This document shows positions 4,098 through 28,955 of a DNA stretch of 64,000 nucleotides, in pieces; position 1 is the stretch's first letter; every line of letters starts with the position of its first letter. A program made the translations under genes and the position numbers. The notes under the pieces are model-generated. The model was not told the DNA's origin, did not search any database, and was given only the letters and a program-made list of their open reading frames with translations. The DNA comes from Candidatus Nitrososphaera evergladensis SR1. GTDB lineage: Archaea; Thermoproteota; Nitrososphaeria; Nitrososphaerales; Nitrososphaeraceae. Where the stretch lies: contig NZ_CP007174.1 in NCBI RefSeq assembly GCF_000730285.1, forward strand, positions 310,001-374,000. Reading direction: 5' to 3'.

Positions 4098-4640
4098 TTA
4101 ATGTGCGTGTGGTGGAGGCGCGCTACCCTTTGCCAGCTCCTCGTTGAAGGTGCCTGCAGCCTTTTCGTGGAACTCCAGGTTGCTCTGGTCAACCTTGACT
4201 GCCTGCGGCGGGCACACTGAAACGCACGCCATGCACCATATGCAGTCGTGCTCCCTTATCGGATCCGACTTGTCGGTAAAATCCATGCGCCCATCTTTTG
4301 AATGGTCTTCGCCCTTGCCAGCGCTGGTTGCGTTTTGCATTTCTATCGCGGGCACATCCTGATGATCTGTCCTGTACCATTCATACACCTGGACCGGGCA
4401 CGCCTCTATGCAGGCACCATCGGCAATGCAAGAGTCCCAGTCGATTGCGACCATCGTGCCGTGAACGCCTAATGGAACAATCTGTTCGCCTCTTGTTTCA
4501 TACGCTTTCTTGACTTCCTCATTCTCCGCTGCTTCTGCTACCTTTCCCGGCCCCCACACAAAATGAAAGTGCTCTCCGTCTGCAAGTTTGTGTTTTCCTA
4601 TGACCTGGTGGTTTTTAGGAAACTCTGGGTCTATTGGCAT
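4098..4640 (-). CDS. Zinc-type dicluster ferredoxin (3Fe-4S / 4Fe-4S)
   Basis: 180 residues. The N-terminal extension carries His residues (GKHKLADGEHFHFVWGPG) like the Zn-binding extension of Sulfolobus ferredoxin. The first cluster motif is CIADGACIEACP: Cys-x5-Cys-x3-Cys-Pro with Asp in place of the second Cys, as expected for a 3Fe-4S cluster. The second motif is CIWCMACVSVCPP, a normal 4Fe-4S site. Between them is a longer linker of about 45 residues rich in Asp, Lys and Gly. The C-terminus ends in a His-rich tail. It is a soluble cytoplasmic electron carrier, probably accepting electrons from 2-oxoacid:ferredoxin oxidoreductases. It stands alone, with amoC downstream in the same orientation. 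Confidence 0.93.
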   Translation of the reverse strand: MPIDPEFPKNHQVIGKHKLADGEHFHFVWGPGKVAEAAENEEVKKAYETRGEQIVPLGVHGTMVAIDWDSCIADGACIEACPVQVYEWYRTDHQDVPAIEMQNATSAGKGEDHSKDGRMDFTDKSDPIREHDCIWCMACVSVCPPQAVKVDQSNLEFHEKAAGTFNEELAKGSAPPPHAH

Positions 4641-4949
4641 CTCTTGTACTCTATGTCGCCAATTCTTTTAACTCTTTAGAAATTATCTGCAATCTGCTCT
4701 AATAATTACCTATAATTACATAATAATTTTTATCAGGATAAAATAAATGTACAAAACAGACATGCGACAAAAAAATCTAACGCCAGCTGGGCGGTTAAAG
4801 GTGCTGCAAAGTTTATGCCATGTTATTTTTAGAAGGAAAAATACTTCTTGCAGTACACGTGGAAGCAAGCGGCGCGCTGAAATGCAGCTGATTTGAGGAA
4901 CAAAGTTACCCAGTGATTATATCGTCGGCATTGAGTATTTTGATTATAA
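4641..4949. other. Divergent intergenic region, AT-rich
   Basis: 309 bases between the divergently transcribed ferredoxin gene and a small zinc-protein gene. The part near 4700-4740 is very AT-rich (ATAATTACCTATAATTACAT) and is the likely promoter zone for the ferredoxin gene. A TTATAAAT-type box just before 4950 suggests a short or absent leader for the plus-strand gene. No other gene is supported. Confidence 0.4.
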
Positions 4950-26871: not shown

Positions 26872-26895
26872 TATAGTAGCCGCAACGAGGGATGA

Positions 26896-26963
26896 TGATA
26901 TGTGTGTGTGTGCCTATGCGCGAATGAATAAGATTTTTTTCACAGGCACATATACACACACTC
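26896..26963. repeat. GT/CA alternating tracts forming an imperfect hairpin
   Basis: A tract reading ATATGTGTGTGTGTGCC (26897-26914) is followed, after about 30 bases with a T run, by AGGCACATATACACACA (26944-26961), its approximate complement. The element directly follows the deacetylase stop, so it may be its terminator. Confidence 0.4.
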
Positions 26964-27154
26964 GAGCGATGCTAAAAACATACACTGCGGCTCGCATAAG
27001 CTTTGGACGCCGCCACGCTTGCGGCAATGCCTTTTGAGTCCCCCTTTATAGTATAGAAACTATATAGCTTTATTCTATTTTTCGCTATTATAGGGGAATA
27101 TACATGATATTCACACTATACTTTGATATATCTAACTATTAGTTCTTGTTGTGG

Positions 27155-27422: not shown

Positions 27423-27458
27423 TTTAAATATTAGGCTAACCTAATTAGGCTTGCCTAA
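27423..27458 (+). promoter_or_regulatory. TATA box with two tandem DtxR/IdeR-like boxes
   Basis: A textbook archaeal TATA box, TTTAAATA (27423-27430), preceded by a BRE-like GACCG, is directly followed by TTAGGCTAACCTAA (27431-27444) and TTAGGCTTGCCTAA (27445-27458). Each is a near-palindrome of the TTAGG-TTAG-CCTAA kind bound by metal-dependent repressors of the DtxR/IdeR/MntR family. Binding would cover the start site (expected at about 27450), so repression when iron or manganese is plentiful is the simplest model. Transcription would run to the right. Confidence 0.7.
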
Positions 27459-27565
27459 TTTCCAGGAAGTCTGGCATATTGGCATCTACCAGCAAGTCTC
27501 AAATCACCTCCCGCCCAGTGTGTCACGCTTCAGCTGGGCGGGCCTAACCCTTCTTCTTCTTTGCA
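27452..27565 (+). ncRNA. Candidate metal-regulated small RNA
   Basis: The promoter at 27423-27458 points into a stretch with no ATG frame. It contains a perfect 9-bp inverted repeat, CCCGCCCAG (27510-27518) and CTGGGCGGG (27534-27542), followed by a pyrimidine-rich run (CCCTTCTTCTTCTTT) that could end transcription in an archaeon. A 22-codon frame from a TTG near 27479 that ends at a TAA at about 27545 is a weak coding alternative. The transcript could also be the leader of the secreted protein gene at 27691. The boundaries are estimates. Confidence 0.4.
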
Positions 27566-27690
27566 AAGCTTGCACATCTTCTGCTAGAAGAGACATCAAT
27601 AATGTGCCAAATGTACACACATAATTTCATGTTACGCATTATTATAGGGAATTCTTCTCAGATATTGTTGCAGAACAAGTCCAGTTTCTT

Positions 27691-28413
27691 TTGTATGCAG
27701 GATGGAACCTGTGTCTTGTGTACGCAAGAGCAATCACGACGACATTGGTTGGTGTGATTGCTGCGATTATTATTGTCATCAATAATCTGCCGGCTGCATA
27801 TTCTTGCAGAGCACCCGAGCAGCACATGAACGTTTTAGTGATCTCTGACGACAGCGGGTGTTCCGCAGAGCTGATAAAAAAGGGAATGCTGCTCCCGGAT
27901 GTTGAAGGCAACAAGCAGTATTTTCCAAGGGATTATGACGTGACGTGCATCGACGGGCTGGTCAAAAAAGGGACAAACACTTTTCAATATATAGAGAAGG
28001 TGACAGTGCCTGCACTTCGCAAGGCCGCGCAGGAAAAGGCGGGAAATATTGAAGAGCTCTACATCTTTGTGTACCCGCAATCGCTTGAAAAACAGTTTAC
28101 GGATTACATTTCCATGCGCTTTGGAGCCGAGCGCGCTAGAACAGCGGATGGGTGGGCAAACGTTGCCGAAAATACGGCATTCTCTCCTGTCTGGGCGGCC
28201 ACGATATACCACGAAGGAAGGCACCTTGCAATTCATGGTACTTGGCACGATGACGCTGGCAGGCTGCTTCCAAACAACCAGATAAACTACTATCCCGGCT
28301 TTGGTCCCAGTCAGAATGACAATGGCAATGACGCTGGAGCGGGGCTGCTAAAGTTCCTCAACATCCGGCCGGCAAGCCTGCCGGGCTGCGGCCTTTCTGT
28401 CGTGAACAGCTAA
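27691..28413 (+). CDS. Secreted putative HExxH metallopeptidase
   Basis: 240 residues from a TTG at 27691. An N-terminal signal or anchor helix (LVGVIAAIIIVINNLPAAYS) precedes a domain with paired Cys and the motif YHEGRHLAIHG, which has the HExxH pattern of zinc peptidases. A third ligand could be in HDDAG or further on. The LYIFVYPQ strand before the motif resembles LIFVYD in the secreted protein at 36596-37279. The metal-box promoter lies about 230 bases upstream and might control it. It is not a known family to me. Confidence 0.65.
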   Translation: MYAGWNLCLVYARAITTTLVGVIAAIIIVINNLPAAYSCRAPEQHMNVLVISDDSGCSAELIKKGMLLPDVEGNKQYFPRDYDVTCIDGLVKKGTNTFQYIEKVTVPALRKAAQEKAGNIEELYIFVYPQSLEKQFTDYISMRFGAERARTADGWANVAENTAFSPVWAATIYHEGRHLAIHGTWHDDAGRLLPNNQINYYPGFGPSQNDNGNDAGAGLLKFLNIRPASLPGCGLSVVNS

Positions 28414-28484: not shown

Positions 28485-28955
28485 TCAAAGCTCGTTTTTC
28501 CTTATTCTGTCAACCATAGTCCCGCCCTTGACATCTTGAATTGCCAAAAACTCTACTGCGTCTACGAACGCATACTGCGCAAGCACGTCAAACTTTTGCG
28601 GCTTTGTTATGTCCTGCCAGCCGAACTTGATGTACGTGCGCCCGTCGTGAGTCTCTTTGAACTTGTGCAGGGACGCCAGGCTTGAAAACGACCTGTATAT
28701 GACATAGTTTATTTGCGCCGGGTTCATCGCAAGCGGATATGCGATAAACTCGTACTTGGCAGGATGCTCTACAAACACCGCATGAAACGCCGGAGAATTG
28801 CCGTGCATATCCATGACCCTTGACCAGCCTTTCTCTGCATTGTGCCGAGAGTCAAATATCGGCGCGACAACGTCCTGCCGCTCGTCGCCGAAATAGCCCA
28901 TACCGAGAAATTCGGAGAATCTGACCACCGGGGCGCGAGGCTCTTCTTCTTGCAA
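28485..28955 (-). CDS. Hypothetical soluble protein
   Basis: 156 residues from a TTG at 28955, 24 bases after the stop of the gene upstream on the same strand, so they probably form an operon. It has no membrane segment. The sequence has strands and helices without Cys clusters (VAPIFDSRHNAEKGWSRV, then EFIAYPLAMNPAQINYVI). I do not recognise the family. The composition and length look like a real gene. Confidence 0.65.
   Translation of the reverse strand: MQEEEPRAPVVRFSEFLGMGYFGDERQDVVAPIFDSRHNAEKGWSRVMDMHGNSPAFHAVFVEHPAKYEFIAYPLAMNPAQINYVIYRSFSSLASLHKFKETHDGRTYIKFGWQDITKPQKFDVLAQYAFVDAVEFLAIQDVKGGTMVDRIRKNEL

Follow-up and report, generated by a model that had tools for sequence, protein, structure and literature searches.

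The locus at 27423 of the window, by which we mean the whole stretch of 64,000 nucleotides analysed here, is best read as the gene of an iron-sparing small RNA that is repressed by a protein of the DtxR/IdeR type and lowers ferredoxin synthesis in iron shortage. We put the probability of this reading at about 0.6. When iron is sufficient, the Fe-loaded repressor would occupy a pair of operator boxes downstream of the TATA element, ahead of the site where transcription begins, and so block RNA polymerase. When iron is short, a free-standing RNA of about 105 nt would be made, its 3' end formed by a GC-rich hairpin and a pyrimidine tail. Its conserved 5' segment is predicted to pair around the start codon of the mRNA for a [4Fe-4S] ferredoxin (4098-4640, minus strand), and this pairing, itself inferred to occur in the cell, would lower ferredoxin translation and spare iron.

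The promoter is readily observed. A TATA element, TTTAAATA (27423-27430, plus strand), is followed at the next base by two abutting 14-bp boxes of the TTAGG-N4-CCTAA form, TTAGGCTAACCTAA at 27431-27444 and TTAGGCTTGCCTAA at 27445-27458, exactly where the preliminary description had placed two adjacent near-palindromes. Chance falls far short of explaining the box pair: exact matches to TTAGGNNNNCCTAA occur twice in the window (27431 and 27445; expected 0.05), a number reached by none of 100 shuffles, and an abutting pair with at most three mismatches occurs once (expected 0.00). The single-contig genome to which the window belongs (G000; 2,954,373 bases) has TTAGGNNNNCCTAA at nine sites, against two for a reversed control pattern, and contains two abutting pairs, this one and another at 904889.

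The same arrangement of TATA element and boxes is repeated in related loci, which an exact operator search found in the genus Nitrososphaera; the operator of one of them, G011, is a perfect palindrome. Of the 300 genomes of the order, 44 contain the TATA element plus box pair with at most three mismatches, and none contains the control pattern. Lack of conservation of the boxes would have counted against the original proposal, and as they are kept across related genomes this objection falls away.

Its comparison of the boxes with metal-repressor operators also holds, the TTAGG/CCTAA palindrome being found at metal-gene promoters. Operators of DtxR, IdeR and MntR are likewise TTAGG...CCTAA palindromes, but they form one 19-bp site, whereas here two 14-bp boxes abut. 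The DtxR consensus has 19 bp with a 9-nt centre, and neither box, with its 14 bp and 4-nt centre, satisfies it; box 1 is identical to the right 14 nt of that consensus. Archaeal DtxR regulons have reportedly been described by Leyn and Rodionov (2015). In genes driven by such promoters the start codon often overlaps box 2 or comes just after it, so that transcription is inferred to start near the end of the box pair, and a repressor bound there would therefore block initiation.

Elsewhere in G000, a single box lies near an FTR1 permease and another in the intergenic region between a DtxR gene (an Fe-type paralogue) and a divergent ferritin; a box also precedes ferritin in G015. Outside the order, archaeon BMS3Abin16 has an exact TATA element and box pair before what we read as an FTR1-like permease (L199). 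Other boxes of G000 adjoin a hydantoinase-type gene, as in G004, precede a SUI1 gene with a long leader, or lie near a small protein that we read as winged-helix-like and for which Pfam gave no significant family. The box at 236793, near an AbiEi-type gene, is probably there by chance. Box-pair promoters of other genomes precede a permease that we read as ZIP-like, and small proteins of 61-70 amino acids. The latter include a conserved, box-driven protein with the motif ICxNTxGxLD, seen at L221, L223, L225 and L227 (g26), at L091-L094, L096 and L097 (g2) and at position 3994 of L208 (G015). The commonest product of tandem operators is a protein of 104-125 amino acids, probably of the winged-helix type and possibly a secondary regulator (L012, 4512-4889; relatives at L057, L060, L066, L067, L209, L220 and L229).

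The identity of the repressor and its binding are inferred. Four genes of G000 match PF01325, one AsnC-like and three encoding DtxR proteins. The paralogue at 1881618 is MntR-like (E about 1e-28). Those at 1898046 and 2686542 read MYLKAIW in place of the DYIE or DYLE of MntR, and CGIEHH in place of its EGIEHH; Met and Cys thus occupy the positions of the Asp and Glu of MntR, a combination that we take to be DtxR/IdeR-like, that is, Fe-type. There are no binding data, and we hold DtxR-type control of the locus to be very probable, with the paralogues G000:2686542 and G000:1898046 as the best repressor candidates.

Behind the promoter we infer a small RNA of about 105 nt (27455-27562, plus strand), its start deduced from TATA spacing and related promoters; both ends are unmapped. 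As had been noted at the outset, no ATG frame follows the boxes (27459-27562 has no ATG, and the nearest ATG-started frame begins at 27602), and a perfect 9-bp GC-rich hairpin with a pyrimidine tail is present. The transcript would begin with a conserved 5' segment, domain A (GGAAGUCUGGCAUAUUGGCAUCU, 27465-27487), which is kept in two genera, is complementary to 4618-4642 of the minus strand and is proposed to act as antisense. A second conserved segment, domain B (27488-27509), is predicted to be mostly single-stranded. A small stem-loop UUGG-CAUCUA-CCAG is possible at 27479-27492, with weak covariation. The terminator-like hairpin (27510-27542) consists of nine perfect base pairs, formed by the arms CCCGCCCAG (27510-27518) and CTGGGCGGG (27534-27542), plus one U-G pair, and the tail CCCTTCTTCTTCTTT follows at 27548-27562.

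Fold energy alone is insufficient to make this RNA convincing, that of 27445-27570 being only slightly better than in shuffled sequences (z -1.75); its conservation does. All ten pairs of the hairpin remain paired in six members and seven of them change on both sides, a covariation score reached by none of 500 shuffles; the alignment had been adjusted to the structure, however, and this favours the count. The count comes from alignment A5, which is the cleaner one since A6 holds two partial G014 rows of a single locus. In the G014 RNA (L052, 4868-5021) the conserved segments are separated by an additional strong hairpin, about 55 nt long and flanked by repeated CCAGCAAG. A search with the Rfam covariance models, RyhB included, returned no family match, only low-scoring miRNA models at 26893-26966. 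An alternating gtgtgtgt/cacacaca inverted repeat, located at 26898-26962 after a deacetylase gene, draws such spurious miRNA matches.

A search of related genomes for the box pair and hairpin had been suggested in the preliminary description, and boxes, RNA core and hairpin prove to be conserved jointly at several genomic positions. At the DNA level, a search of 40 relatives and G000 itself gave a 165-nt match at 91% in G015, where the RNA locus is 1596860-1596955 on the minus strand, and shorter matches in G014 and G011. With a covariance model built from G000 and G015 only, the RNA was recovered in G011, G014 and G007, and G000 proved to have another copy at 2058149, whose hairpin differs and which has its own TATA element and a box with one mismatch. 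A six-member model retrieved G012:C9:33616, likewise behind a box, and a third model G213:C413:3596 from another genus, at an E of only 0.11 and 23 nt behind a tandem operator. These last three copies were found without any box information, yet all lie directly behind boxes.

After inspection of the matches, six of the 18 genus genomes are counted as carrying the RNA (eight copies), and locus inspection shows it in all five genomes of a second genus, g26. When the RNAs of G015 and G138 are aligned locally the score is 34, the best of 1000 shuffles giving 29; G011 against G138 scores 29 (2 of 1000). G019 is a weaker relative and possible member, its score of 28 being reached by 3 of 1000 shuffles; against G011 it scores 23 (26 of 1000). 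The covariance models did not detect the RNA in 12 of the 18 genus genomes, the nearly complete G008 and G016 included. Apart from the members just counted and G019, none of the remaining 58 of the family's 70 genomes yielded it with the methods used. We rejected the G230 RNA as a homologue, as alignment did not support it and only the terminator is similar; sequence-pattern matches outside the family had no tandem operator and were judged by eye to be chance. The RNA models also repeatedly match the sense strand of one coding gene, by our motif reading probably aconitase, in seven genomes (G004:C332:1351, G006:C7:10008, G013, G002, G011:2220046, G016 and G009).

The proposed target is a dicluster ferredoxin of 180 amino acids with Fer4 domains (4098-4640, minus strand), zinc-ferredoxin-like in that it shows partial similarity to the zinc-containing ferredoxin NF041165 (96.9 bits, below the cut-off of 280). 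A scan for GATGCCAA at the start codons of examined loci gave eight open reading frames, among them this gene and, in G016 and G114, a 4Fe-4S protein of 97 amino acids. The site complementary to domain A, AGAUGCCAAUAGACCCAGAGUUUCC, covers the ferredoxin start codon (4618-4642, minus strand). There, the RNA of the window is predicted to form 10 and 11 bp, interrupted by a small internal loop and a single bulge, at -30.0 kcal/mol, a value reached by none of 1000 shuffles of either strand. For the G015 RNA and its own ferredoxin orthologue we computed -26.3 kcal/mol (0 and 3 of 1000 shuffles), and for the G011 RNA and the start of its own 97-aa ferredoxin -29.2 kcal/mol (2 and 0 of 1000). These figures carry no correction for the target search, because the ferredoxin was noticed post hoc, after the examined loci had been scanned.

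We also ranked duplexes over 318 start regions (201 open reading frames) of G000, which represent only about 6% of the genome. The ferredoxin start ranks 3rd for the RNA of the window, 8th for G015, 4th for G011 and 2nd to 7th for the five g26 RNAs; it is weaker for G019 (27), G007a (42) and G014 (65), and b-type copies place it at 129, 186 and 249. Three control transcripts of the same promoter class rank it 298, 279 and 203. Under slightly different settings it comes 2nd of 318 for the RNA of the window, and 3rd of 147 for the G015 RNA among G015's own start regions. Other starts pair equally well or better, such as that of a 117-aa frame (L070, 9518; -43.2).

The search for possible targets had null results as well. 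The seed TGGTAGATGCCAA, with one mismatch, gave 52 matches in five whole genomes, five of them the RNA gene itself; none of the 50 examined was convincing as a start-codon target (G014:C31:392230 and G007:C175:3110 excluded). The ferredoxin surfaced later than this search, through a shorter pattern. No zinc-type ferredoxin was found in the stretches of G011, G014 and G007 that had been chosen by synteny. On computed and partly post hoc complementarity, the balance leans modestly towards the ferredoxin as a real target.

A second family of box-driven RNAs bears on this point. Conserved sequence follows the box upstream of SUI1 in G000 (C1:1240774; L014, 4775) and G015 (L207, 3999), and in G012 (L058) it stands behind a tandem operator without SUI1, with a local score of 42 (maximum 25 in 1000 shuffles). 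In G015, the segment CTGGGTCTATTGGCATC of this family and the ferredoxin start GATGCCAATAGACCCAG are exact reverse complements, giving 17 contiguous base pairs at -45.6 kcal/mol and rank 1 of 318; the G000 and G012 members rank the ferredoxin 8th and 10th. As the G012 RNA of this family contains GGGTCAATTGGCA, the ferredoxin of G012 should begin with AUGCCAAUUGACCC. This complementarity was noticed once the ferredoxin idea had formed, and it is the strongest argument for the ferredoxin because the two families otherwise differ.

Several other explanations have to be weighed. The preliminary description had hesitated between a metal-repressed small RNA and a leader for the secreted HExxH protein encoded at 27691, in which case the hairpin would act as an attenuator. 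This gene does follow in the same direction in G000 and G015. However, it is absent from three of the five syntenic loci, which disfavours the leader role: G014, G011 and G007 keep the RNA with no HExxH gene, and the next gene is instead the convergent 156-aa gene that serves as synteny anchor (28485-28955, minus strand, in the window). RNA copies elsewhere have different neighbours again, and we leave the leader only the slightest chance. The anchor gene itself occurs without the RNA at 6 of 11 loci. Alternatively, the transcript could encode a very short peptide started at a TTG codon (LAST... in members read by eye). GGAAG, a spacer of 6-9 nt and TTG do resemble a ribosome site with a start, and the reading frames are largely open, but ATG is absent in G000 and G015, these two differ by indels of 1 and 2 nt, stops vary and the g26 set has small indels as well. 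We regard a peptide product as very improbable; judging from these alignments, the RNA is probably not coding, though a TTG-started peptide remains possible. The small-RNA alternative, by contrast, gained support, with boxes, core and hairpin kept as a unit and the models finding box-preceded copies. In synteny, hairpin covariation and indels the locus behaves as a stand-alone non-coding RNA with a terminator, which we consider highly likely on computational evidence alone, transcription being inferred.

Granting a small RNA, its signal and its target may still be others. Manganese could replace iron if the regulator were the MntR-like paralogue: one DtxR protein is clearly of this type, and a gene that we read as resembling it has the G007b copy of the RNA about 100 nt upstream. 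Against this, boxes accompany FTR1 and ferritin, and one stands in the intergenic spacer beside the gene of an Fe-type paralogue; manganese seems improbable, iron remaining an inferred signal. A metal-repressed RNA acting mainly on other mRNAs, or on a protein, is harder to dismiss: duplexes of equal strength are predicted with other starts, the b-type copies do not favour the ferredoxin, and the duplex scan was confined to a small part of the genome. We nevertheless find it unlikely: complementarity to the ferredoxin start codon is seen in two box-driven RNA families that are unrelated to each other, and the complementary stretch is the best-conserved part of the RNA. The preferred reading remains an iron-repressed RNA directed at the ferredoxin, the direction of its effect being inferred.

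In bacteria, saving iron by means of small RNAs is a textbook strategy, and a small RNA controlled by an iron repressor is of a kind already known there. RyhB of enterobacteria is Fur-controlled and iron-repressed and lowers the synthesis of Fe-S proteins; the lowering of Fe-S protein synthesis proposed here is similar, but the control would be by DtxR and there is no Rfam match. Nearest in logic is MrsI (ncRv11846) of Mycobacterium tuberculosis, an RNA of about 100 nt expressed in iron starvation from a promoter with an IdeR box, with a short seed against iron-protein mRNAs (PMC8628891). Our candidate is like it in its inferred length and its DtxR/IdeR-like boxes, with expression in iron starvation and a seed against an iron-protein mRNA being predicted only; it differs in its archaeal TATA promoter, in the abutting pair of 14-bp boxes and in the ferredoxin as proposed target. 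In archaea, sRNA154 of Methanosarcina mazei likewise has a nutrient-repressor operator (NrpRI) in its promoter (PMC3177094); it responds to nitrogen rather than metal, and the repressor is unrelated. We found no iron-sparing or iron-controlled archaeal small RNA described in the literature searched, where subscription journals were poorly covered, and a term search of the main text of a Nitrososphaera transcriptome paper gave no mention of small RNAs (PMC7785015). That paper gives the accession DRA008627 for public RNA-seq data of Nitrososphaera viennensis under copper limitation.

With a named promoter, regulator candidates and a target site, the idea is directly testable. We can only tentatively extend it to an iron-sparing antisense response of ammonia-oxidising archaea, in which a DtxR/IdeR-type repressor would control two unrelated RNA families aimed at the same ferredoxin start codon; the odds of this wider picture fall a little short of even. 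If true, such a convergence of two RNA families on a single start codon would be uncommon anywhere in the tree of life. Altogether, the locus provides a conserved candidate in abundant soil nitrifiers for what would be an archaeal version of the bacterial iron-saving RNA switches.
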